A stretch of 33,322 nucleotides of DNA, taken from assembly GCF_013362045.1 (NCBI RefSeq), contig NZ_JABFWW010000234.1, forward strand, positions 1-33,322. The letters run 5' to 3'. The DNA is from Frateuria sp. (lineage in GTDB: Bacteria > Pseudomonadota > Gammaproteobacteria > Xanthomonadales > Rhodanobacteraceae). A program made the position numbers and the translations under genes. Below, one piece after another: positions 2,941 to 23,278 of this stretch. Position 1 is the stretch's first letter; each line of letters opens with the position of its first letter. The notes under the pieces were generated by a model that did no database searches, was not told the DNA's origin, and saw only the letters and a list, made by a program, of their open reading frames with translations.

Positions 2941-4452
2941 ATGCGCCTGATCGCCCGTCGTGGTCGCCCCCGTCGCAGCATCGTGTGGCTCGCCGCCGCA
3001 ATGGCTCTGGCTATCCCGCCGCTGCGGGCCGCGGATGCGCCGCTGCCGACCGACGCCATCGCCTGGCTGCAGCGCGACGGCTTCGGCGTGGACAGCGCCG
3101 CACTGGCCCAGTACCGGCGCCTGGGCCGCGAGGGCCTGCTCGACGCCCAACTCGACGACCGCCTAGGCGACACCCTGCCCCCGCAGGTGCAAGGTCAGAT
3201 CGACGGCATGGACATCAGCCGCCTCACTCCCGACAAGCTGGCTGCCACACTGGGCGATGCGCGCCTCCGGCTGCGCACGCTGCCGGAGGCGGACAAGCGA
3301 GAGGCCCGCAAGGCCATGCGCCAGCAGGGCAACGCACTGGCCGAACAGGCGCGCGAGGAGGTGCTGCTGCGCGCCGTGTACGGCCCCAACCAGCTCAAGG
3401 AGCAGATGGTCTGGTTCTGGCTCAACCATTTCAGCGTGTTTGCCCGCAAGGGCGAGGTGAACTGGCTGGTAGCCGACTATGCCGAGCGCAGCATCCGCCC
3501 GCATGCCCTGGGCAAGTTCCGCGACCTGGTGATGGCCACGCTGGAAAGCCCGGCCATGCTCGTGTTCCTGGACAACGCCCAGAACGCCAGCGACAAGCTC
3601 AACGAGAACTACGCGCGCGAGCTGATGGAGCTGCACACGCTGGGCGTGGATGCCGGCTATACCCAGCAGGACGTGCAGCAACTGGCGCGCATCCTCACCG
3701 GCGTCGGCCTGGCGCCGATGCAGGACGGCCCGCGCGCACACCGGCGCCGCGGGCCCCTGCCGCTCGGCGACGGGCTGGCAGCCTTCATCCCGCGCCGGCA
3801 CGACGACAGCGACAAGCAACTGCTCGGCCAGCGCATCCGCGGCGGCGGTTTCGACGAGGTGCGCCAGGCGGTCGATCTGATCGTGCGGCAGCCGGCCTGC
3901 GCGCGGTTCGTCTCGCGCCAGCTTGCCGAATACTTCGTGTCCGATACGCCGCCGCCGGCGCTCATCGAGCGCATGGCGCAAACCTTCGAGAGCAGCGACG
4001 GTGACATTGCTCGGGTGCTGCGCACGATGTTCACCTCGCCGGAGCTTCTCGACAGCCGTGGCGGCAAGTTCAAGGATCCGACGCAGTTCGTCGTGTCCGC
4101 GGTGCGCTTCGTGGCCGACGGCCGCCCCGTGGACGATGCCAGGCCCATCGCCCGCTGGCTTGACCAACTGGGCGAACCGCTGTTCGGGCGACCCACACCC
4201 GACGGCTGGCCGCTCGACGGCGCCGGCTGGTCCAGCGCCGGCCAGATGACCGAACGCTTCGCCGTCGCGCGCGCCATCGGCAGCGGCCGGGGACTGTGGG
4301 CGGACGGCGCGCCCGCACTCGACGGTCCGCTCTACCAGGCGGTGCTGGCGCCGCGCTTGTCCGCGCGCACGCGTGCGGCGCTTGCCCAGGCCGGTTCGCG
4401 GCAGGAGTGGAACGCCTTCCTGCTCGCCTCTCCCGAATTCAATTACCGCTGA
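2941..4452 (+). CDS. DUF1800 domain-containing exported protein
   Basis: 503 residues with a basic N-terminus and hydrophobic stretch ending in an Ala-rich region (about 12-31) typical of a signal peptide. The body fits DUF1800: a helical N-terminal part, the motif [13 protein letters not shown] (about 154-166), and the family hallmark [17 protein letters not shown] (about 221-237) followed by an ARILTG element. Function is unknown. DUF1800 genes are very often found next to DUF1501 genes, as here, where the partner starts 14 bases downstream. The two are presumed to work together on an exported or surface substrate. ATG 2941 gives a full signal peptide; ATG 3001 is a less likely alternative that would lose most of it. 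Confidence 0.9.
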
Positions 4453-4466
4453 TGCGAGGACATCCC

Positions 4467-5663
4467 ATGGACCGCCGCCAGTTCCTGCGCGTAAGCGCCG
4501 CCGCCCTCGCTGCACCCGCGCTCGGCTTTTCCGGGCGCCTGTTCGCCGCGCCGCCGGACACGCCACGCTTCCTGCTGGTGTTCCTGCGCGGCGGCTACGA
4601 CTGCAACCACCTGCAGGTGCCCTATGCCAGCGAGTTCTAAGACGAGTCGCTCCCCAACCTGGCGATCGCGCGGCCCGACGGCTCGCGCCAGGATGCGTCC
4701 GTCGCCCTGGATGCCGGCTGGGCGCTCGGACCCGCAGTACGCGATGCGCTGCTTCCCTACTGGCAGAAGAAGCAGCTGGCTTTCGTCCCCTTCGCAGGCA
4801 CCGCCGACCTCTCGCGCAGCCATTTCGAGACCCAGGACGACATCGAATCGGGCCAGGCGGGCGGCATGCACGGGCACGACCGTTCCGGCTTCCTCGCGCG
4901 GCTGTCCGGCCTGCTCACCCAGGCCCCTGCGATTGCATTCACCCGCGGGTTGCCTTTGAGTTTCCAGGGTGGCGGCCCGGTTCCGAACATCGTGCTGGGC
5001 GGCTCCGGACGGGCGCGCTTCGACGCACGCCAGGGAGCCATCTTCGCCGGCATGTACGACGATACCGCCCTCGCGCCCGCTGCCCACGAGGGCGTGACGC
5101 TGCAGCAGGAGGTCGCGCAGGACCGGCAGCAGGAGATGGCGGCCGCCAGCCGCGGCGCGCCGGGCGCCGGCAGCTTCGTGGCGCAAAGCCGGCGCATGGC
5201 CACGCTGATGCTCGACCGCTACCGGATCGGCTTCGTCGACGTCGGCGGCTGGGACACCCACGTCAACCAGGGCGCCGCCGAAGGCCGGCTGGCGACCAAC
5301 CTCAAGAACCTGTCCGCCGGGCTGGCCGCCTTCGCCGATGCGCTGGGGCCGGAATGGAACAACACCCTGGTGGCGGTCGTTTCCGAATTCGGCCGCACCT
5401 TCCGCGAGAACGGCGACAAGGGCACCGACCACGGCCACGGCACGGTCTACTGGCTGATGGGTGGCCGCGTCGCGGGCGGCCGCATTGCCGGCGAGCAGGT
5501 TGCAGTGACCGCTGCGAACCTGCTGCAGAACCGCGACTACCCCGTGCTCAACAACTACCGCGACCTGCTCGGCGGCGTGTTCGGCCGCCTCTGGGGGCTG
5601 TCCGACGGGCAGGTGCAGCGCGTGTTTCCCGGTGCGCACCTCAATGACTTCGGCCTGGTGTGA
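4467..5663 (+). pseudogene. DUF1501 domain-containing Tat-exported protein, interrupted by in-frame TAA at codon 58
   Basis: From ATG 4467 the frame encodes a twin-arginine-like signal (DRRQFLRVSAAALAAPALG) and the start of a DUF1501 protein, then meets TAA at 4638-4640. The same frame continues without another stop to TGA 5661-5663. It reads ESLPNLAIARPDGS just after the stop, FVDVGGWDTHVNQG around codon 255 and VSEFGRTF about 40 residues later, then GTDHGHGT, which are the conserved metal-site-like motifs of DUF1501 (alkaline phosphatase/sulfatase superfamily). Without the stop the product would be about 398 residues. The stop context SEF-stop-DES suggests a Tyr codon TAC changed to TAA. 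Codon use downstream has not decayed, so the lesion is recent or is a base-call error. Reinitiation at ATG 4866 would lack the signal peptide. Partner of the upstream DUF1800 gene. Confidence 0.88.
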
Positions 5664-7730: not shown

Positions 7731-8856
7731 TCAGGCATCGATGCGCTTGGCGCCGGCATCCAGTCCGGATTTGAGGCTCGCCTCGATGAACTCGTCCAGG
7801 TCGCCGTCCAGCACCTTCTGCGTGTCGCTGCGTTCGACACCCGTGCGCAGGTCCTTGATGCGGCTCTGGTCGAGCACGTAGTTGCGGATCTGGCTGCCCC
7901 AGCCGATGTCGGACTTGGTCGCCTCCAGCGCGTCCTTCTCGGCGTTGCGCTTCTGCAGCTCCAGCTCGTACAGCTTGGCGGCCAGCATCTTCATGGCGCG
8001 ATCGCGGTTGGCGTGCTGGCTGCGCTCGGTCTGGCAGGCCACCACCACGCCGCTGGGCACGTGCGTGATGCGCACGGCCGATTCGGTCTTGTTGACGTGC
8101 TGGCCGCCGGCGCCGGAGGAGCGGTAGACGTCGGTCTTGAGGTCCGCCGGGTTGATCTCGATGTCGATGTCGTCATCGACCTCGGGCGAGACGAACACCG
8201 AGGTGAAACTGGTGTGGCGGCGGTTGTCCGAATCGAACGGACTCTTGCGCACCAGGCGGTGTACGCCAATCTCGGTCTTCAGCCAGCCGTAGGCGTAGTC
8301 GCCCTCGACGCGGAAGGTGGCCGACTTGATGCCCGCCACTTCGCCGCCGGAGACTTCCATCAACTCGACCTTCCAGTCGCGCGATTCGGCCCAGCGCAGG
8401 TACATGCGCAGCAGCATCTCGGCCCAGTCCTGCGCCTCGGTGCCGCCGGCGCCGGCCTGGATGTCGACGAAGGCGTTGGCCGAGTCCATCTTGCCGGAGA
8501 ACATGCGCTGGAACTCGAGCTTGGCCACGCGCGCTTCGAGCTTGGCCAGGTCATCGACAACTGCGCCGGCGGTGTCCTCGTCGCCATCGGCGATGGCCAT
8601 GTCCAGCAGCTCACGCGCGTCGACAAGCCCGGCGGTGAGCTGGTCGATGCCGCTGACGATGGTGTCCAGGCGGGCGCGTTCGCGGCCCAGTTCCTGCGCG
8701 CGCGGCGGGTCGTCCCAGACGTTGGGGCTTTCCAGCTCGCGGCTTACTTCCTCCAGGCGCTCGCGCTTGGTGGCGTAGTCAAAGATACCCCCTAAGCGAC
8801 TCGACGCGGTCCGTGAGGTCCGCGATCTGCGCAAGGATCGGATTGGTCTCGATCAT
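7731..8856 (-). CDS. prfB: Peptide chain release factor RF2, expressed by programmed +1 frameshift
   Basis: Translation starts at ATG 8856 ([14 protein letters not shown]), runs 25 codons and meets TGA at 8781-8779. A +1 shift there continues as [16 protein letters not shown] through to the stop at 7731, giving about 374 residues. RF2 landmarks are the SPF tripeptide that reads UGA/UAA stops (in [15 protein letters not shown]) and the peptidyl-transferase motif GGQ (in [14 protein letters not shown]). RF2 ends translation at UGA and UAA in the cytoplasm. The frameshift is the known autoregulation: low RF2 lets ribosomes pause at UGA and shift. Annotating only the longer downstream frame from a position near 8834 would give a wrong N-terminus. 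No strong ribosome binding site is seen upstream of ATG 8856. Confidence 0.97.
8778..8793 (-). promoter_or_regulatory. prfB programmed +1 frameshift signal
   Basis: Reading the minus strand, AGGGGGTATCTTTGAC combines an internal Shine-Dalgarno-like AGGGGG (8793-8788), a TAT spacer codon, the slippery CTT (8784-8782), the UGA stop (8781-8779) and a following C, the weakest context for termination. This is the same arrangement and, as I recall it, the same 16 bases as in E. coli prfB, with the stop also at codon 26. Confidence 0.96.
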
Positions 8857-8976: not shown

Positions 8977-10212
8977 TCAGTAGAACACCCGGGCGCTCAA
9001 CTGCACCTGGGTGGTACGGCTGCGGGGCGACAGTCCGTAGTCGGCACGGACGGCGCGGATGCTGTCGATGCGCAGGGCCTCGAGGGTGAGCCGCAGCCAT
9101 TCGCGCGGGCGCCAGTTGAGGGCAGCGGTGACCGCGTTGCCGTGTTCGCCCGCATACACGCCGGGTACCTCGGATGAATCGCGTGTGCTGAAGTGGTCCA
9201 GGCGAAGTGCCGGGCGCCAGGCGCCGCGGTTCCATCCGGCCAGCACGAAGGCCGCGCGGTAGCGGGTAGTGAACGCCAGGGCCGGGGCCGGCTCGACGAC
9301 GGTGTGGCCATCCATCATCTGCACGATCCAGCCGATCGGGCCGGTATCGGCGCTGGCGCCCAGGCTCCAGAAGCGCGTGTGCCATGCATACAGGCGATCG
9401 CCGCCGGCATGGGGCACCCATGCGGCGGGATCGGCGTGGTTGTCGTAGTGCATCAGGCTCACCCGCCCCCAGCCGCGCGCGCGCCAGGCGAGCTGGACAT
9501 AGTTGCCCCAGTGCCGGCCGATGCGGCGGAACGGGTCATAGAGCTGCGGCGGCTCCCCGCCCTCGTCGCGCACGTAGGCGTCGGGCTCGCGCAGGCGGCT
9601 GCCCAGGCCAAAGGTGCGGTCGCTGAGCGACCAGCCGCGGACCGCCAGCAGGTTGCCTGCCGGATCGTTGCGCTGGAACAGCGCGCCGCGCAGTTCCCAG
9701 GTGGCCGTTTCGCCACGTCGTTCGATGCGTGCCTCGGCACCCACGGCGCGCAGCTCCTCGCCGATCCAGCTGTTGATCGCCGAGGGCGTGAGCGTCCACG
9801 GACTGGTCCAGCCAATGGCGTCGTTCTCCAGCGAGACCGGCGGAAAGAACGCGCCCGCCTGCACCGATCCGCGCCAGCGTGTGGTCGACACCGGGCGCCA
9901 GCGCAGCCAGGCTTCCAGCACATCGATGCCTGCACGGTGGCCGCCCTGCAATTGCACACCCGCGAATGCGAGCACCGACGGCGTCAGCTGCGCGGTACCC
10001 ACCAGGGCGGCGCCGCCAAAACGCAGGCTGGCACCTGTATCGCCGTAGCGGCTCTTGCCGAGGCCGCCGTCGATCCAGCTTCGTTCGTTCGGCGCCGTCA
10101 CCAGCCGGGCGTCGAGGTAGCCGTGCAGGCTGGCATCCTGCGCCCGGCCCGACAGCGGCAGCGCCACCATGCAGGCCAGTACCAGGCGGCACAGGCGCAT
10201 GCGGTGGTTCAT
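8977..10212 (-). CDS. Outer-membrane beta-barrel (porin-like) protein
   Basis: 411 residues with a signal peptide (MNHRMRLCRLVLACMVALPLSGRAQ), alternating hydrophobic/aromatic strands through the body (for example WELRGALFQR, YVQLAWRARGWGRVSLMHY, FWSLGASADTG, AAFVLAGWNRGAWRPALRLDHF) and a C-terminal strand ending VQLSARVFY. The terminal aromatic residue is the usual BAM recognition signal. This predicts an outer-membrane barrel of roughly 16 strands. I do not recognise a named porin family and no substrate can be assigned. The ATG at 10212 overlaps the stop of the upstream EAL gene as ATGA, so it is probably translationally coupled as the last gene of the cupredoxin/EAL/barrel operon. A much longer open frame continuing upstream in this register is only antisense/out-of-frame sequence of the EAL gene. 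Confidence 0.8.
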   Translation of the reverse strand: MNHRMRLCRLVLACMVALPLSGRAQDASLHGYLDARLVTAPNERSWIDGGLGKSRYGDTGASLRFGGAALVGTAQLTPSVLAFAGVQLQGGHRAGIDVLEAWLRWRPVSTTRWRGSVQAGAFFPPVSLENDAIGWTSPWTLTPSAINSWIGEELRAVGAEARIERRGETATWELRGALFQRNDPAGNLLAVRGWSLSDRTFGLGSRLREPDAYVRDEGGEPPQLYDPFRRIGRHWGNYVQLAWRARGWGRVSLMHYDNHADPAAWVPHAGGDRLYAWHTRFWSLGASADTGPIGWIVQMMDGHTVVEPAPALAFTTRYRAAFVLAGWNRGAWRPALRLDHFSTRDSSEVPGVYAGEHGNAVTAALNWRPREWLRLTLEALRIDSIRAVRADYGLSPRSRTTQVQLSARVFY

Positions 10213-12530
10213 GCGACACCGGCCCATGCAAACCCGGCCAGTTCCGTGGCCGGCAGCGGGCGGGCGATGAAGAAGCCCTGGGCATGGTCGCAGCCGATCG
10301 CGGCCAGTTGCTCCAGCGCACCGGCATCCTCCACGCCCTCGGCCGTGACCTGGTAGCCCAGCCGGTGGCCCAGCTCGACGATGGAGCGCACGATGGTCTG
10401 ATCGCTGGTGTCGCGTGCCAGGTACCTGACGAAGGTCTGGTCGATCTTCAGCTCGCTCACCGGCAGATGACGCAGATAGGCGAATGCCGACTGACCGACG
10501 CCGAAGTCGTCCACGGCGATGCCTACGCCGAGGTCGGCCAGCCCCTTGAGCACGCGCAGGGCCTTCTCCGGCTCGCCGATCACGGCGCGCTCGGTGATTT
10601 CCACCGTGAGCTGCCCGGGCGGCAGGCCGTGGATCGCAAGCAGGCGCCCGATGCGCAGCGGCAACTCCACCTCCCCAAGGTCCCGGGCCGACAGGTTGAC
10701 CGCCACTTTCAACGCCTGCCCGCTCGCGTGCCAACGGCTCGCCTGCGAGATGCCCGCTGCGAGCGCCCAGCGTGTGAGCCGCTGGATGTTGCCGGTGTCC
10801 TCGGCCATGCCGATGAAGTCCTGCGGAGGCACCGAGCCGCGGCGCGGATGGTGCCAGCGCACCAGCGCCTCGACGCCGTCCACGCGTCCGGTGGCGAGCG
10901 CCAGCTTGGGCTGGTAGTGCAGCACCAGCTGGTCGTGGTCGAGCGCCTCGCGCAGCTCGCCCATCAGCGACAGGCGTTCGGCGCGGTGCGGATCGGTCGC
11001 TACCTCGTAGAAGGCCAGCGGCCGGCTGGCGCCGCTGGCCGTAAACTGGGCCACCTCGGCATGCCGCAACAGCACTGAGGCCAGCGCGCCGTCCTCCGGA
11101 TACATGGCGATGCCGATCGCGGGCAGGGTATCGATGCTGACGTCCGCCTCGACGTAGGGCGCGCCCAGCGCGTCGAGGATGCGCAGCGCCGACGCCATCG
11201 CCTCGGCGCGGTCGGCGCCGGCCAGCCAGGCGACGAACTGCGTATCGGTGGCGCGCGCCAGGCAGGCCCGTGCGGCGACCCGGCCCAGCCGCGCGCCGAC
11301 TTCGCGCATCAGCCGGTCGTACAGCCCGTGTCCCATCGTCTTGATGATGTCGGGCACTCGCGTGAGGCCGACCATCAACAGGGCCCCATGCGCGGCGCCG
11401 GCCTCGCGGGCGCGGTCGATCGTGGTTTCGATGGCTACGCGGTTGGGCAGCCCGGTAACGTGATCGTGCAGTGCCTGCTGGCGGATGCGTTCCTCGCGCT
11501 GGCGCACCGCTTCGGCCATGGTGCCGAAGGCGGCCGCGAGCTGGCCGAGCTCGTCGCGCCGGTCCAGGCTGGGCGGCGTGTGGTAGTCGCCCGCCTCGAT
11601 GCGCCGCGCCGCGCCAGCGAGCGATTCGACCGGGCGCGACACGCTGCGCGCGGCCAGCCACGCGCCGATCAGGCCCACGACGAGGCCCAGCGCGAGCAGC
11701 AGGCCCCAGGCGATCGCCACCGACCGGAACGGCCGCAGCGCGTCTTCCAGCGAATAGCCGAGCACGGCCACGACGGGCGCCGCACTGTGCGGCTGGCTCA
11801 GCGGCTGCGCAAGCACCAGATATTCGTGTCCGCGGATCATGCGCACGGCCGGCCTGGCCGGCAGGCCCTGCCCGGCCAGGCTGGCGACCAGCCCCGCATG
11901 CGTGGAGCTCTGGGCGACCGTGCGCCATGGCGAACCGGCCGGCCGTACTGCCAGTTCGATGTCGCCCGGCAACGCGGAAAGCTTGCCCAGATGGTCGAGC
12001 AGCGCATCGTCCAGCGGCACGTAGACCACCACCAGGCCGACCGGCTGCGGTGCGTAGATCGGCACGACCACTACCCAGTATGCCCTCGCCTGCAGCGTCA
12101 CCACCGCCGCGGTGCGCCGATCGAACGCATGCCCGGCCAGGTCGGGGAAGGCGAAGCGTTGGCCGCTGGCGCGGACGTCCGCGGTGTCCACCTCCACCAC
12201 GCCGTCGAGGCCGACCAGTTGCATGCGCGAAGCGCCCACCCGTCGCCCGTGGTTGCGCAGCACGGATAACACCGTGCCATGGTCGCGTTCGGCGATCGCC
12301 GAACGCAGTGCATAGTCGAGCGACAGCACCTCGACGTTGCCGGCCACGCGCGATGAAAGGTCGTCCATCTGCGCCACGAAGGCCTGCGCGTTGGTCGCCA
12401 ACCGGCGCTCGCCCTCGCTGACCAGCGCGCGGCGCGTCACCCCGTAGACCAGCGCGGCGGTGAGCAGCTGCACCGCCACGAGCGTCGCGACGAAGAACAG
12501 CGCAAGGCGGAGGCGGAAGCCGACGCGCAT
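10209..12530 (-). CDS. Membrane sensor with degenerate GGDEF and active-type EAL domain (c-di-GMP phosphodiesterase)
   Basis: 773 residues. TM helix 1 (about 9-31), a ~240-residue periplasmic sensor resembling a double-Cache/CHASE region, TM helix 2 (about 272-294), HAMP (about 295-348), a GGDEF-like domain (about 350-515) and EAL (about 520-765). The GGDEF signature is replaced by ATDTQ (427-431), so cyclase activity is not expected. The EAL domain keeps E554 (EAL), N612, E644, the DD pair in DDFG (674-675), K695, E731 and Q751, the metal- and substrate-binding set needed to hydrolyse cyclic-di-GMP to pGpG. The protein should sense a periplasmic signal and lower c-di-GMP. It starts 4 bases after the cupredoxin gene and overlaps the barrel gene, so the three form one operon. 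Confidence 0.92.
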   Translation of the reverse strand: MRVGFRLRLALFFVATLVAVQLLTAALVYGVTRRALVSEGERRLATNAQAFVAQMDDLSSRVAGNVEVLSLDYALRSAIAERDHGTVLSVLRNHGRRVGASRMQLVGLDGVVEVDTADVRASGQRFAFPDLAGHAFDRRTAAVVTLQARAYWVVVVPIYAPQPVGLVVVYVPLDDALLDHLGKLSALPGDIELAVRPAGSPWRTVAQSSTHAGLVASLAGQGLPARPAVRMIRGHEYLVLAQPLSQPHSAAPVVAVLGYSLEDALRPFRSVAIAWGLLLALGLVVGLIGAWLAARSVSRPVESLAGAARRIEAGDYHTPPSLDRRDELGQLAAAFGTMAEAVRQREERIRQQALHDHVTGLPNRVAIETTIDRAREAGAAHGALLMVGLTRVPDIIKTMGHGLYDRLMREVGARLGRVAARACLARATDTQFVAWLAGADRAEAMASALRILDALGAPYVEADVSIDTLPAIGIAMYPEDGALASVLLRHAEVAQFTASGASRPLAFYEVATDPHRAERLSLMGELREALDHDQLVLHYQPKLALATGRVDGVEALVRWHHPRRGSVPPQDFIGMAEDTGNIQRLTRWALAAGISQASRWHASGQALKVAVNLSARDLGEVELPLRIGRLLAIHGLPPGQLTVEITERAVIGEPEKALRVLKGLADLGVGIAVDDFGVGQSAFAYLRHLPVSELKIDQTFVRYLARDTSDQTIVRSIVELGHRLGYQVTAEGVEDAGALEQLAAIGCDHAQGFFIARPLPATELAGFAWAGVA

Positions 12531-12534
12531 GGAT

Positions 12535-13176
12535 CTAGTAGTCCAGGTGTTCGCGATCGGCCAACTTGCGCGGATCGGGAATCAGCGACAGGGTGAAGTC
12601 CACGTGCGCGTCCATGCCCTCCGCCAGCGTTGCCACTTCATGGGGCTGCGCCTGGCCCGGCCGCAGCTGCGGATGCCACACCTGCACCGTGTAGCGTCCG
12701 GGCGGCAGGTGCTCGAACACCACCTGTCCCTGCGAAGGCGTCACCAGCGCCTGCCCGGAGGTGATCACCAGGTAGGCGATCATGTGGTCGTGGATGTTGC
12801 AGCCCAGCGCGACCAGGCCGGTCTTGTCCAGGGTCAACGGCGGCGAGCTCTCGCCCGGCCGCAGCAGGAACTCGAACGCCTTGGCTGCGGAGAACGAATA
12901 GACATGGTGGCGGGTGCCGTCGCTGTTGCGAAACACCACTCGGTCGCCCGGGTGGACGACCTGCACGTAGGGAATGAACGTCTCGTCGCGCTGGTCGACG
13001 TAGCGCGTCGCAGGCCGGGACGACGGCCCGGCCTGCGGCATCGCAGGCGTCAGGCTCACCACCGCGTCACCCACCGCATGCCCGCCCGAATCGTTGACCC
13101 GCACCACCAGTTGGCCCGCCCATAGCGGGCCCGTGCTGCCGGCCAGCAGCCATGCCATGACGAATCGCCAGCGCAT
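12535..13176 (-). CDS. Exported cupredoxin-fold protein (methylamine-utilization/plastocyanin-like)
   Basis: 213 residues from ATG 13176, with a signal peptide ending near WAG (about residue 20). The sequence RNSDGTRHHVYSF (about 83-95) and GCNIHDHM (about 125-132) together supply the His, Cys, His and Met ligands of a type-1 copper centre (roughly H91, C126, H129, M132). The C-terminal half is a beta-sandwich extension (PPGRYTVQVWHPQ). Proteins of this type are often named methylamine utilization protein, but no methylamine dehydrogenase genes are nearby. A periplasmic electron carrier or copper/redox sensor is the sensible reading. A GTG at 13185 is possible, but GGGGAG is better spaced for ATG 13176. 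First gene of the trio with the EAL sensor and the barrel protein. Confidence 0.85.
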   Translation of the reverse strand: MRWRFVMAWLLAGSTGPLWAGQLVVRVNDSGGHAVGDAVVSLTPAMPQAGPSSRPATRYVDQRDETFIPYVQVVHPGDRVVFRNSDGTRHHVYSFSAAKAFEFLLRPGESSPPLTLDKTGLVALGCNIHDHMIAYLVITSGQALVTPSQGQVVFEHLPPGRYTVQVWHPQLRPGQAQPHEVATLAEGMDAHVDFTLSLIPDPRKLADREHLDY

Positions 13177-13449
13177 GACGCGCACTCCCCTGGATTCCCC
13201 TGCGCTAGCCTAACCCAGGCATCCGCGCAGCGGTCAATTCACCATGACATGCCGCAGCCCGTGCGATACATCCCAACCCTTGGGCAGGTACGGCCCAGGC
13301 GCAACCCTGCCCTTGCCGTACGCGCATCCGGTGGTGCCTGCCGATCCGCATGAACGCCGATGGCGGCATGGGTCGACGCGGCTTTCCGAAGACTACGCCG
13401 CAATTACGCGGCGCCGCTTAGCGTGCCGGATCCGCATCGAGAAGCACGA

Positions 13450-19048: not shown

Positions 19049-20524
19049 ATGAAGCCTGCCCCGCTCCGCCTTCGCACCGCGCTGGCTGCGGCGATCGCGC
19101 TGACGCTGGCCGCCTGCGCCACGCCACCGGCGAAGCTCTCGCCACCGCAACTGCGCGACGACGTGCCGCTCGCCGGCATCGAGACCACCACCCGCGCCGG
19201 CTGGCCCGAGGCGCAGTGGTGGCGCAGCTACGACGACCCGCAGCTCGATGAGCTGATGGATCGCGCACTGCGCCAGGCGCCCGACCTGGCGCTCGCGCAG
19301 AGCCGTGTGCAGGGCGCCGAGCAATCCGCGCGCCTGGCCGCTGCCCAGATGGGGCTGTCGATCAACGGCAACGCGCAGTTCTCGCGCCAGCGGATGAGCG
19401 AGCACGGCCTGATCCCGAGCAAGTTCCTCGGCTTCACCTGGTACAGCCAGGCGGACCTGGGCGTGCAGCTGAAGTACGACTTCGACTGGTGGGGCAAGAA
19501 GCGCGCATCCGTGGAAGCGGCGCTGGACCAGGCGCATGCCGCGCAGGCGCAGCGCAGCGCGGCCGCGCTGGCGCTGCAATACGCGGTTGCCAGCACCTAT
19601 TTCGGCTGGCAGGCCGACCAGGCGCGCCTTGCGCTGGCCGACCAGGCGCTGGCCGCGCAGCAACAGCTGCTGGACATCGCGCAGTTGCGCGTGCGCCAGG
19701 GCGTGGACCTGGCCGATACCGTCGAGCAGGCGCAGGCGCAGCGCGCGTCGATCAGGCAGATGCGTGCAGCGGTCGAGGGCTCGGCCAAGGTTCGCCAGGC
19801 CGTGCTCGCCTCGCTGCTGGGCGTGGCGCCGGCCGACCTTCCGCCGCTTCAGGCGCGCTCCCTGCCGGACGTGGCACCGGGCTTGCCCGCCGATGCGGGC
19901 CTGGACCTGATCGCACGCCGCCCGGACATCGCGGCGAGCCGCTGGCAGGTCGAGGCAGCGCTGAAGCAGACCGACGCGGCGCGCGCGCAGTTCTTCCCGG
20001 ACCTCAGCCTGACCGCGCTGGCCGGCCTTTCCAGCATCGACATGGGCAAGCTGTTCACCGCCGGCAGCCGCACCTTTGCGGTGACGCCGGCGCTGCATCT
20101 GCCGATCTTCGAAGGCGGCGCACTGGAGGCCAACTACGGCCTCAGCCGGGCGCAGCTCGATGGCGCGATAGCGCAATACCGCAGCACGGTGCTGGAGGCG
20201 GCGCGCGACGTGGCCACCCAGGCGCTGGGCGCCGAGCAGCTCGCCGCGCAGCGCCAGGAACAGCAAGCCCAGCTGGATGCGGACGAGCGCCTGCTCGCCC
20301 ATGCCCAGGCGCGCCTGCACCAGGGCGTGCGCGACGCCCGCGAGAGCCTGGCCGCCAGGCTCGCCCTGCTGCAGCAGCGTGACGCCGCCGTACAACTGCA
20401 CGCGCAGGCGCTGGCCACCGACCTGGCGCTGGTCAAGGCGCTCGGCGGCGGCTATCGCAGCGAGCCCCATCCCGACACCGCTTCCACCTCCCCTTCCCCC
20501 GGAGCCGACCATGAGCGCCACTGA
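19049..20524 (+). CDS. emrC: NodT-family outer-membrane efflux lipoprotein (EmrC-like)
   Basis: 491 residues. Lipobox LAAC with Cys 23, then the RND/MFS outer-membrane factor pattern with two repeats: WWRSYDDPQLDELMDRALRQAPDLALAQSRV (about 52-83) and its counterpart DLIARRPDIAASRWQVEAALKQTDAARAQFFPDLSL (about 287-322), plus LPIFEGGALEANYGLSRAQLD. These trimeric TolC-like channels carry drugs from the periplasm across the outer membrane. An AAAGGA ribosome binding site ends 8 bases before the ATG; the gene starts 11 bases after emrR and its 3' end overlaps the emrA start by 14 bases. A C-terminal Pro/Ser/Thr-rich tail is not conserved in the family. Confidence 0.93.
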   Translation: MKPAPLRLRTALAAAIALTLAACATPPAKLSPPQLRDDVPLAGIETTTRAGWPEAQWWRSYDDPQLDELMDRALRQAPDLALAQSRVQGAEQSARLAAAQMGLSINGNAQFSRQRMSEHGLIPSKFLGFTWYSQADLGVQLKYDFDWWGKKRASVEAALDQAHAAQAQRSAAALALQYAVASTYFGWQADQARLALADQALAAQQQLLDIAQLRVRQGVDLADTVEQAQAQRASIRQMRAAVEGSAKVRQAVLASLLGVAPADLPPLQARSLPDVAPGLPADAGLDLIARRPDIAASRWQVEAALKQTDAARAQFFPDLSLTALAGLSSIDMGKLFTAGSRTFAVTPALHLPIFEGGALEANYGLSRAQLDGAIAQYRSTVLEAARDVATQALGAEQLAAQRQEQQAQLDADERLLAHAQARLHQGVRDARESLAARLALLQQRDAAVQLHAQALATDLALVKALGGGYRSEPHPDTASTSPSPGADHERH

Positions 20525-21707
20525 AGCCGACAAGCCCGCCGACAACGACAGCGGCCTGGCCGCGAAAAACCCGGCCAAGCGCCGCCGCGCGCTGCTGATC
20601 GTGGCAGCGGTGTTCATCCTGGCCGCGCTGGTCTGGATCCTGCTGTGGATGTTCGTCTTCTCGCGCCGCGAAAAGACCGACAACGCCTACGTCGGCGGCA
20701 ACCAGGTGACGATCTCCGCGCAGGTGCCCGGCACCGTGGTGGCGATCATGGCCGACGACACCCAGCGCGTGGACGCCGGCCAGGTGCTGGTCAAGCTCGA
20801 TCCCACCGACGCGCAGGTACGCCTGGCGCAGGCGCGCAGCGCGCTGGCGCAGGCGGTGCGCGGCGTACGCCAGCAGACCAGCTCGGCCAGCGGCGCCGAC
20901 GCGCAGCTTGCCTCCAGCCGCCTGGAACTGGCCAAGCTGGAAGCGGATTTGAAGCGCCACCTGCCGCTGCTGGCCGCGCATGCCGAATCGCCGGAGATCG
21001 TGCAGCATCTGCGTGACGGGGTGGCGCAGGCGCGCGCCGCGGTGAATGCGGCCGAGGCGCAGGCCGCCGCCGCACATGCGGCGATCGAAGGCACCGATGT
21101 CGCCGAGAATCCGGCCGTGCTGCAGGCGCGCGCGAACTTCCGCGCCGCGTGGATCGCCGCGCAGCGCAACGCGATCCTGGCGCCGGTGTCGGGCTATGTC
21201 GCGCAGCGCAGCGTGCAGCTGGGCAACAGCGTGCAGCCGGGCCAGCAGTTGATGACCGTGGTGCCGCTGCACGACCTGTGGATCGACGCCAACTTCAAGG
21301 AAGGCCAGCTGCAGCACATCCGCATCGGCCAGCCGGCCACGGTCAAGGCCGACATCTATGGCGGCGACGTCGAGTATCGCGGCAAGGTCGTGGGTCTGGG
21401 CGCCGGCACCGGCAGCACCTTCTCGCTGCTGCCCGCGCAGAACGCCACCGGCAACTGGATCAAGGTGGTGCAGCGCGTGCCGGTGCGCATCGCGCTGGAC
21501 GACCGGGAGCTGGAGAAACATCCGCTGCGCGTGGGCCTGTCCACCGAGGTCACGGTCGACATCACCGACGACCGCGGGCCTGTGCTGGCCCAGGCACCGG
21601 CGCAGCAACCGGTCGCCGAGACCACCGTGTACGACCGCCTGATGGGCAAGGCCGACGACGAGGCCCAGCGCATCATCCGGGCCAACCTGCCCCGCGCCGC
21701 CAAATAA
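20511..21707 (+). CDS. emrA: EmrA/HlyD-family efflux periplasmic adaptor
   Basis: 398 residues. Short cytoplasmic N-terminus, one TM helix (about 26-48), then the membrane-fusion protein pattern: KTDNAYVGGNQVTISAQVPGTVV (first half of the lipoyl domain), DAGQVLVKLDPTDAQVRLAQA, a coiled-coil hairpin (about 110-215), ILAPVSGYVAQRSVQLGNSVQPGQ (second half), then a beta-barrel domain containing DLWIDANFKEGQL. EmrA links the inner-membrane pump EmrB to the outer-membrane channel. The ATG lies inside the 3' end of emrC (14-base overlap), suggesting coupled translation; a longer upstream extension of the frame lacks homology. Confidence 0.95.
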   Translation: MSATEADKPADNDSGLAAKNPAKRRRALLIVAAVFILAALVWILLWMFVFSRREKTDNAYVGGNQVTISAQVPGTVVAIMADDTQRVDAGQVLVKLDPTDAQVRLAQARSALAQAVRGVRQQTSSASGADAQLASSRLELAKLEADLKRHLPLLAAHAESPEIVQHLRDGVAQARAAVNAAEAQAAAAHAAIEGTDVAENPAVLQARANFRAAWIAAQRNAILAPVSGYVAQRSVQLGNSVQPGQQLMTVVPLHDLWIDANFKEGQLQHIRIGQPATVKADIYGGDVEYRGKVVGLGAGTGSTFSLLPAQNATGNWIKVVQRVPVRIALDDRELEKHPLRVGLSTEVTVDITDDRGPVLAQAPAQQPVAETTVYDRLMGKADDEAQRIIRANLPRAAK

Positions 21708-21724
21708 CCTGAAGGCCCTTCCCC

Positions 21725-23278
21725 ATGGCCGCCACACCCAACGACACCAAGCCGCTGCCGCCCCTGCACGGCACGGCGCTGGTGCTGCTCACCATCGCCG
21801 TCGCGTTCAGCACCTTCATGGAGGTGCTGGACATGACCATCGTCAACGTGGCCGTGCCGCACATCGCCGGCAGCCTGGGCGTGAGCCCGAGCGAGGGCAC
21901 CTGGACGATCAGCTCCTACGCGCTGGCCAGCGCGATCATGCAGCCGCTCACCGGCTGGATCGCGCGGCGCTTCGGCGAGGTGCGCAGCTTCGTCGTCTCC
22001 GTGCTGCTGTTCGTCACCTTCTCGATGGTGTGCGGCCTGGCCACCTCGATGCCGCTGCTGGTGATCGGGCGCCTGCTGCAGGGCGCCGGCTCCGGCCCGA
22101 TGGTGGCGCTGTCGCTGACCCTGCTGCTGTCGAGCTACCCGAAGGCCAAGCAAGGCATCGCGCTGGCGCTGTGGGCGATGACCGTGGTGGTGGCGCCGAT
22201 CTTCGGCCCGATCCTCGGCGGCTGGCTGACCGACAACTTTTCCTGGCCCTGGATCTTCTACATCAACCTGCCGGTCGGCCTGGCCGCCGCGGTGATCACC
22301 TGGGGCCTGCTGCACAAGCGCGAGACGAAGACCGCCAAGACGCCGATCGACTCGGTCGGCCTCGTCCTGCTGGTGGTCGGCGTCGGCGCGTTGCAATTCA
22401 TGCTCGACAACGGCAACGACCACGACTGGTTCGCCTCGCCGATGATCGCCACGCTGGGCATCGTCTCGCTGGTCTGCCTGACGTTCCTGGTCGTGTGGGA
22501 ACTGCATGCCAAGCATCCGGTGGTCGAGCTGTCGCTGTTCAAGGAACGCAACTTCACGGTCGGAGTGGTCGCGCTTTCGCTGGGCATGTTCGCGTTCTTC
22601 GGCATCAACGTGGTGTTCCCGCTGTGGCTGCAGGTGACGCTCAACTACACCGCCACCTGGGCCGGCCTGGCCACGGCGCCGGTCGGCATCCTCGCCTTCC
22701 TGATGGCGCCGATCCTGGGACGCAACCTGCATCGGCTGGAGCTGCGCGCGGTGGTGACGTTCTCGTTCGTCGTGTTCGCGATCACCTCCTACTGGTTCTC
22801 CAACTTCAACAGCCTGGCGTCGTTTTCCTCGCTGGTGGTGCCGCGGTTCGTAATGGGCATCGCCATCCCCTGCTTTTTCATCCCGCTCAACCAGATCTAC
22901 CTGTCCGGCCTGCCGGCCGAGCAGATCGCGAGCGCGAGCGGCCTGGCCAATTTCTGCCGCACGATGGGTTCGAGCATGTCCACCGCCATCACGGTGACCT
23001 TGTGGCAGCACCGCGGCGAGACCCACCACGCGACGCTGACCGAGAACATCGATGCGACCCATCCGGCGATCGGCGGTTTCCTGCAGCAGGCCCCGCACAT
23101 GGGCCTGTCCCATACCCAGGGCCTGGGACTGCTCAACCAGCTGGTCACGCGCGAATCGCTGACCCTGGCCGTGAACGACGTGTTTCTCGGCTGCGCGGTG
23201 CTGTTCGTGCTGCTGATCCCGATCCTGTGGTTCGCCCGGCCGCCGTTCGGCAGCGCGGGCGGCGCGGCAGGGCATTGA
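21725..23278 (+). CDS. emrB: EmrB/QacA-family (DHA2) multidrug MFS transporter
   Basis: 517 residues, predicted 14 TM helices. DHA2 marks: FSTFMEVLDMTIVNVAVPHIAGSLG in TM1 (with the family D-x-T motif), TWTISSYALASAIMQPLTGWIARRFGEVR (motif A region), LLQGAGSGPMVALSLTLLL, and the TM5 antiporter motif region PIFGPILGGWLTDNFSWPWIFYINLPVG. EmrB pumps export hydrophobic drugs and uncouplers using the proton gradient, with EmrA and the outer-membrane factor encoded upstream. It starts 17 bases after emrA and ends the operon. A long open frame on the opposite strand is a codon-bias shadow. Confidence 0.96.
   Translation: MAATPNDTKPLPPLHGTALVLLTIAVAFSTFMEVLDMTIVNVAVPHIAGSLGVSPSEGTWTISSYALASAIMQPLTGWIARRFGEVRSFVVSVLLFVTFSMVCGLATSMPLLVIGRLLQGAGSGPMVALSLTLLLSSYPKAKQGIALALWAMTVVVAPIFGPILGGWLTDNFSWPWIFYINLPVGLAAAVITWGLLHKRETKTAKTPIDSVGLVLLVVGVGALQFMLDNGNDHDWFASPMIATLGIVSLVCLTFLVVWELHAKHPVVELSLFKERNFTVGVVALSLGMFAFFGINVVFPLWLQVTLNYTATWAGLATAPVGILAFLMAPILGRNLHRLELRAVVTFSFVVFAITSYWFSNFNSLASFSSLVVPRFVMGIAIPCFFIPLNQIYLSGLPAEQIASASGLANFCRTMGSSMSTAITVTLWQHRGETHHATLTENIDATHPAIGGFLQQAPHMGLSHTQGLGLLNQLVTRESLTLAVNDVFLGCAVLFVLLIPILWFARPPFGSAGGAAGH

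Follow-up and report, generated by a model that had tools for sequence, protein, structure and literature searches.

A cupredoxin as the candidate periplasmic input of a cache-HAMP-EAL receptor in Frateuria

Introduction

For many enzymes of cyclic di-GMP (c-di-GMP) turnover, it is unclear what their periplasmic sensor domains detect. What such a domain might read is the question raised by a locus of Frateuria sp. (contig NZ_JABFWW010000234.1), of which 33,322 nucleotides were analysed, the whole stretch being called the window. Three genes, all on the minus strand and arranged head to tail, encode in this order an exported-like cupredoxin (called CUP here), a membrane receptor (the sensor) with a periplasmic dCache_3 domain and an EAL domain, and a porin-like outer-membrane barrel. 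An initial annotation of the window had suggested that either the copper- or redox-loaded cupredoxin or the cargo of the barrel is the signal that the periplasmic domain reads, with control of biofilm or motility as the presumed outcome. We find that the genomic partner of the receptor family is a conserved, apparently exported copper-type protein, in many Pseudomonadota and some other phyla, which turns the input into a concrete candidate protein. To the reading that the three products form one signalling module, in which CUP would be the periplasmic input of the receptor and the barrel the supply route, we give about an even chance. It builds on direct observations: the gene content, the intact state of the ligand and EAL residues, the conserved grouping and the swapping of outputs. 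If true, bacteria would have a means of converting copper or redox conditions beyond the inner membrane into signals based on c-di-GMP, cyclic nucleotides or phosphorylation, and there would be a function for the relatives of CUP named 'methylamine utilization protein' and for the uncharacterised DUF3034, a presumed barrel family found at other loci.

Pairing of CUP and receptor genes

The gene neighbourhood was surveyed in both directions. In a class sample of 276 genomes, profile searches were made for CUP, the sensor and the barrel, at most 11, 8 and 6 candidates, respectively, were scored per genome, and the distance limit for neighbours was 4 kb. Strong sensor matches (>100 bits, own genome excluded) had CUP within the limit in 15/17 cases, and weaker ones in 7/10 (50-100 bits) and 3/4 (30-50 bits). 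Because the association falls to 1/13 below 30 bits, the single case being another fragment of a sensor included in the counts above, the CUP link belongs to this sensor clade. Starting from CUP, all 15 strong matches (>150 bits) had a sensor within 4 kb, followed by 4/7 at 100-150 bits, 5/42 at 50-100 bits and 1/18 below 50 bits.

The other survey covered 80 named loci, the best 80 of at least 593 confirmed relatives, chosen by CUP motif pattern, with 4.5 kb as the limit for sensor and barrel. Genes were called by our own picking of open reading frames (ORFs) and ten home-made profiles, a procedure that may overlook partners and leave shadow ORFs in place; some loci stop at contig edges, three of them (L049, L053, L116) right behind CUP. 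A sensor was found near CUP in 71 of the 80. Full-length CUP and sensor were both present in 66, of which 58 have CUP followed by the sensor on the same strand, six have the sensor first and two are divergent; 47 of the 58 have the two ORFs no more than 60 nt apart. A CUP-sensor fusion was sought among the ORFs of the fetched loci and none was found. By NCBI ranks, the 80 records comprise 71 from Pseudomonadota, eight from other phyla and one unassigned. The grouping of CUP and sensor is far beyond chance. Barring an artefact, it is scarcely credible that the genes are ordinary neighbours with no functional link, the sensor being kept across Pseudomonadota and other phyla while outputs and barrels vary, and chance neighbourhood was rejected on both survey directions, neither of which yielded anything in its favour.

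CUP relatives are present in 14 plasmid records. Seven of them were examined: in five, CUP is followed by an EAL receptor, one has a cut-short cache gene and one is without a sensor. In Caballeronia, Comamonas and Novosphingobium, large plasmids carry the module or parts of it (L032-L036, L038); that of L036, pSBC1_4, has a truncated sensor gene. Some arrangements depart from that of the window. Three Rheinheimera loci (L080, L094, L095) have no sensor; CUP is accompanied there by a barrel gene of the same family as the window's, in divergent orientation, and by a downstream ORF of 165 residues. At L161-L166, CUP is followed by a longer cache-EAL protein of about 900 residues that has weak sensor scores, and five of these (L161, L162, L163, L165, L166) have a divergent upstream ORF of about 950-980 residues. 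Several Pseudomonas modules have a large divergent gene next to them, which was not counted among the module genes; judging by how three of its sequences begin, we take it to resemble the N-terminus of a Lon-type protease.

The cupredoxin

CUP has a signal-like N-terminus, as judged by eye, and is apparently exported. Its ligands are H90, C126, H129 and M132 (counted from the ATG at 13176), the last three in a C-x2-H-x2-M loop, which we take to be of the short amicyanin type and of the electron-transfer type. The His-Cys-His-Met site, described as complete in the initial annotation, is indeed so and is conserved in relatives: the four residues are invariant in 56 aligned CUP sequences, the window's own among them and the others drawn from the pattern-selected set. 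In 44 aligned rows from loci that were pulled without the motif, the first His and the Cys are each present in 44/44, the second His in 43/44 (one gap) and the Met in 40/44 (three Ser, one Asn).

The Pfam scan of CUP gave no match to a cupredoxin family, the sole stretch found being CarboxypepD_reg (E 2e-6, under its cut-off). The AlphaFold2 model, made from the alignment of 56 sequences, has a mean predicted local distance difference test (pLDDT) score of 94.0. In structure comparison, cupredoxin matches span residues about 53-140, with Z-scores of 13.0 for a nitrite reductase domain, 12.8 for Cupredoxin_1, up to 12.2 for plastocyanin and about 11-12 for amicyanin, and the flanking parts match CnaB or carboxypeptidase-regulatory folds. 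CUP is thus modelled as a cupredoxin of the amicyanin-like kind, inserted in another small domain that is CarboxypepD_reg/CnaB-like. With this predicted fold and the His-Cys-His-Met set, it would qualify as a type 1 copper cupredoxin and is predicted to bind copper.

The likeness to amicyanin and plastocyanin lies in the fold and, presumably, in the loop; CUP differs from them in having the second domain and in being linked to signalling genes. Several CUP relatives carry the NCBI name 'methylamine utilization protein'. An amicyanin (MauC) of methylamine metabolism was nevertheless rejected as the identity of CUP, since mau genes are missing from the neighbourhoods of seven annotated relatives. 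No methylamine dehydrogenase gene is annotated beside CUP in these seven, nor did Pfam find one among the 13 ORFs of the window.

The receptor

The dCache_3, HAMP, GGDEF and EAL domains of the receptor all score above their Pfam cut-offs, and dCache_3 is periplasmic, between two apparent membrane spans (judged by eye). When the EAL domain was aligned to two Pseudomonas-type GGDEF-EAL structures, E554, N612, E644, D674, D675, K695, E731 and Q751 were found intact, the aligned positions presumably being the EAL catalytic set. A membrane-spanning sensor with an intact EAL domain, as first annotated, is therefore what the gene encodes. The catalytic residues are kept in 67/67 aligned EAL-type sensors, the window receptor included, and a canonical GGDEF motif is found in 21/67. 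In the receptor itself the GGDEF site reads ATDTQF (427-432) and is degenerate, lacking the GGDEF/GGEEF motif of diguanylate cyclases. Because the EAL residues are intact and the GGDEF is degenerate, the expected output is c-di-GMP cleavage.

A membrane HAMP-GGDEF-EAL layout with a periplasmic domain is shared with LapD, in which the EAL domain is a non-catalytic c-di-GMP binder. An inactive receptor of the LapD kind was rejected: the score against NF045673 is 124.4 bits vs a cut-off of 1020, and the catalytic residues of the EAL domain are in place. A role of copper in sensing has also been proposed for c-di-GMP enzymes with an MHYT domain, which is an integral membrane domain on the same polypeptide. 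Here, copper would sit instead in a separate soluble protein. The Pfam scan of the receptor (P0002) gave EAL, HAMP, GGDEF, dCache_3 and a weak CHASE4 only, and MHYT is absent. A PDB sequence search with the sensor profile returned zero matches.

The periplasmic domain of the window receptor has zero Cys. Across the periplasmic domains of 92 sensors, conservation of Cys, His or Met stays below 85% in every column, the best being H94 (in 61) and M103 (in 45), and the conserved residues include L44, D72, T86, S89, N93, R97 and P161. A conserved metal site of the sensor's own thus appears unlikely, and since the domain is without conserved Cys, His or Met, a metal signal would more likely arrive via a partner protein. 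The absence of conserved metal ligands also bears on the proposal that the locus is a copper-supply module, in which the barrel would import copper, CUP would hold it and pass it to periplasmic enzymes, and the receptor would sense copper in some other way and adjust lifestyle to its supply. A barrel and a complete set of copper ligands do share the operon. However, the fold and, presumably, the loop of CUP are of the electron-transfer type, and in the seven annotated loci examined the neighbours of CUP include no annotated copper exporter, chaperone or copper oxidase. We regard the supply module as quite improbable.

Swapping of outputs

Sensors at the 71 named loci differ in output: 54 have EAL, ten a cyclase, four a histidine kinase, and three were left unassigned. 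Pfam confirms Guanylate_cyc (L133) and HisKA/HATPase (L143) outputs behind cache-HAMP or HAMP inputs. Pkinase outputs (Ser/Thr kinases) are found behind HAMP receptors at L130, L131, L150, L152 and L154, where the neighbouring cupredoxins are more distant and have a Y-C-N-V/I-H motif. A tree of the sensor domain (91 rows) requires at least six output changes when two unassigned rows are set aside, and eight if those count as a state. A clade of histidine kinases (L052, L058, L074, L092; Shimodaira-Hasegawa-like approximate likelihood ratio test, 99) is nested in the EAL clade that has the window's type of barrel, which is also found at each of the four loci. The periplasmic half and CUP stay while the output changes, as would be expected were CUP and the cache domain the functional unit, and a role of CUP as input fits the same pattern.

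More tentatively, and with somewhat less than even confidence, these loci may represent an unnamed, widespread class of envelope signalling, in which a blue-copper-type protein serves as the detachable redox or metal sensor subunit of cache-HAMP receptors and a dedicated outer-membrane barrel is the supply. The outputs would be of at least four kinds: c-di-GMP phosphodiesterase, class III nucleotide cyclase, histidine kinase and Ser/Thr kinase.

The barrel and the truncated haemoglobin

The AlphaFold2 model of the window barrel (mean pLDDT 92.2) matches OprP, OprO, DcaP, OmpT and OmpF at Z about 24-25, and Foldseek also gives porins. The sequence has a signal-like N-terminus, by eye, and a C-terminal Tyr. 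The protein thus models as a porin-like outer-membrane protein, in line with the barrel of the initial annotation. In spite of sharing the OprP/OprO fold at Z about 25, it stays below the Porin_O_P (PF07396) cut-off (19.2 vs 20.9 bits) and has conserved motifs of its own.

A barrel or presumed barrel is present at 63 of the 80 named loci and belongs to one of three families: the window family (26 loci), DUF3034 together with a truncated haemoglobin (20), and a third family of about 300 residues, UP300 (17). In the class sample, the window family has four strong matches outside its own genome (plus three weak), three of the four within 4 kb of CUP. DUF3034 has 15 matches outside the genome of the window (one partial), of which nine, on comparison of the match tables, lie within 4 kb of CUP. 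All three genes of the window's trio are also found in the environmental relatives Luteibacter yeojuensis (L042) and Rhodanobacter spathiphylli (L040). The assignment of DUF3034 as a presumed barrel draws on a C-terminal Phe or Tyr in 34/40 ORFs; UP300 has such a residue in 16/20 and weak OMP_b-brl matches, and none of the nine members that were scanned matches a Pfam family above its cut-off. The initial annotation called for a survey of whether the trio is conserved. The pair of CUP and sensor is, as described above, so that for CUP the refuting outcome named there, a sensor that occurs mostly alone, was the reverse of what was found, and to that extent the proposed interpretation is supported; the third gene is less strict, some barrel being common but the window's own family being found at about a third of the named loci. 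The degenerate GGDEF, the interchangeable output domain and barrel family, and a common version of the module with an exported-like truncated haemoglobin go beyond what had been annotated.

In this last version, a group 1 truncated haemoglobin and DUF3034 lie within 4.5 kb of CUP (20/80 loci). Six of the haemoglobins were read, and all start with a signal or lipoprotein-like sequence, so they are apparently exported. Their presence raises the alternative that the signal is a diatomic gas or nitrosative or oxidative chemistry (O2, NO, nitrite) reacting with the copper centre. Copper would then be a cofactor only, the apparently exported haemoglobin would react likewise in other lineages, and the receptor would read the reacted cupredoxin. 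Two features of the window agree with this: a formate/nitrite transporter gene (Form_Nir_trans) lies upstream of CUP in divergent orientation, and the top structural match of CUP is the cupredoxin domain of copper nitrite reductase, although the match reflects fold only. However, 60/80 loci have no truncated haemoglobin in the 4.5 kb around CUP, one of these, L085, having the pair at a greater distance, and the window operon has none, the DUF3034-haemoglobin pair being elsewhere in the same genome. Because the DUF3034-haemoglobin version exists, a gas or nitrosative signal stays the main rival, albeit an unlikely one in our estimate.

In the genome of the window, DUF3034 overlaps or adjoins a truncated-haemoglobin match at G000:C261:1066-1830 (L126), and there is no CUP match in the 12 kb taken. 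The pair that stands separately there belongs to the CUP-EAL module in other lineages.

A proposed mechanism and its difficulties

CUP is probably the input of the sensor and would report copper or redox state. In the mechanism proposed, exported CUP in one metal or redox state would dock on the cache domain of the receptor, the docking face probably lying around D72, T86, S89, N93 and R97, which are conserved at the level of sequence. Docking would alter HAMP packing and thereby switch the EAL phosphodiesterase, so that c-di-GMP would fall or rise. The outer-membrane barrel would admit the agent that loads the copper centre or reacts with it.

Co-variation is consistent with this mechanism. 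Among 66 EAL-type loci, distances of CUP correlate with those of the sensor domain (r 0.70), about as well as the sensor domain correlates with its own EAL (0.69), and CUP with EAL at 0.625. The partial correlation is 0.48 for CUP and sensor given EAL, and 0.28 for CUP and EAL given sensor; none of 1000 permutations reached the CUP-sensor correlation. Several observations weigh on the other side. The bootstrap interval of the CUP-sensor minus CUP-EAL difference includes zero (-0.007 to 0.170), and the CUP-sensor correlation still contains shared ancestry, so co-variation is supportive only of CUP as the sensor's partner. Few branches of the sensor-domain tree are firm, and the well-supported ones alone force fewer output changes (EAL 3, histidine kinase 2, cyclase 1, Ser/Thr kinase 1). 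The sensor profile (A2) was built from the sensors of CUP loci and is therefore tuned to that clade. Two strong sensors (G139:C35 and G191:C19) have no CUP nearby; these misses (L138, L145) are EAL-type sensors with no CUP in the 11 kb taken. CUP is also absent near 3/10 sensors at 50-100 bits and 1/4 at 30-50 bits. Among these weaker misses, L155 and L167 are likewise without CUP, and in G169 the sensor and CUP lie at the ends of two contigs. A barrel was undetected at 17/80 CUP loci. A sensor was undetected at 9/80, eight of them with a barrel or presumed barrel; CUP therefore also has a life without the sensor. A distant CUP homologue on a Rhodobacteraceae plasmid (L037 5018-7970) is flanked by two c-type cytochrome genes, one on each side, and has no sensor beside it. 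Finally, the contact and its site, copper or redox as the signal, the direction of the switch and the role of the barrel are steps that we infer.

Some of these observations would suit a different explanation, in which the cache domain binds a small molecule imported by the barrel, and CUP is an electron carrier for the metabolism of this molecule and makes no contact with the receptor, the genes being linked by their service in one pathway. dCache domains usually bind small ligands, and the cache domain here could itself do so; the barrel fold is of the porin type. The loci with CUP and a barrel in which no sensor was detected, and the homologue between the cytochrome genes, point the same way. 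However, the other six annotated plasmid loci examined show no recurring oxidoreductase beside the pair except the truncated haemoglobin. That the same CUP and sensor are combined with any of three families of barrel or presumed barrel argues against a single fixed cargo, and the sequence distances of CUP follow those of the sensor domain. We consider a small-molecule signal with CUP as electron carrier unlikely, and prefer CUP as the input.

For CUP as input, the closest analogy is NspS-MbaA, the polyamine-sensing system of Vibrio cholerae, in which the state of a periplasmic partner sets the c-di-GMP turnover of a GGDEF-EAL receptor (PMC8967002). Both systems combine a periplasmic partner with a membrane GGDEF-EAL receptor. 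The partner of MbaA is a periplasmic binding protein, unlike the cupredoxin here, so the present locus is not a member of that system; it also differs in that its operon includes a barrel gene, its GGDEF is degenerate and its relatives have interchangeable outputs. The module is thus likely a variant of periplasmic-partner signalling. No description of it was found among open-access papers (titles and abstract starts of the top matches, with subscription papers and preprints outside the scope).

Layout of the operon and its surroundings

The coordinates (Table 1) bear out the three minus-strand genes, the 4-base gap and the ATGA overlap given in the initial annotation. The TAG stop of CUP ends at 12535 and the receptor ATG is at 12530, with 4 bases between the genes; at the ATGA (10209-10212), the TGA stop of the receptor overlaps the ATG of the barrel. 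The start of CUP could be GTG at 13185 or ATG at 13176. The ATG was kept because it is better placed behind AGGGGAG; the GTG overlaps the likely ribosome-binding site.

Table 1. Features of the locus, in window coordinates unless residues are indicated
Feature	Position	Strand	Description	Basis
CUP	12535..13176	minus	exported-like, amicyanin-like cupredoxin	sequence, AlphaFold2, structure comparison
CUP ligand codon H90	12907-12909	minus	predicted copper ligand	sequence
CUP ligand codon C126	12799-12801	minus	predicted copper ligand	sequence
CUP ligand codon H129	12790-12792	minus	predicted copper ligand	sequence
CUP ligand codon M132	12781-12783	minus	predicted copper ligand	sequence
Receptor (sensor)	10209..12530	minus	dCache_3-HAMP-GGDEF-EAL	Pfam, residue alignment
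Receptor dCache_3	residues 41-245			Pfam
Receptor HAMP	residues 293-344			Pfam
Receptor GGDEF	residues 353-494			Pfam
Receptor EAL	residues 525-758			Pfam
Outer-membrane barrel	8977..10212	minus	porin-like fold	AlphaFold2, structure comparison
Upstream block TTGACC...TAGGCTAGCG	13203..13237	minus	promoter-like	alignment of six upstream regions

The block upstream of CUP is kept in five same-genus genomes, and its promoter-like appearance suggests that it may act as a promoter; a scan for promoters, sigma-70 sites included, and terminators found nothing. Downstream of the trio is prfB (release factor 2), with its ATG at 8856 and, within 8740-8856, the sequence AGGGGGTATCTTTGAC, presumably the programmed frameshift site. 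Farther off in the window, DUF1800 and DUF1501 genes adjoin at 2941-5663, and at 20277-23278 an HlyD-family gene and an MFS gene stand in tandem, which we take to be an EmrAB-like efflux pair.

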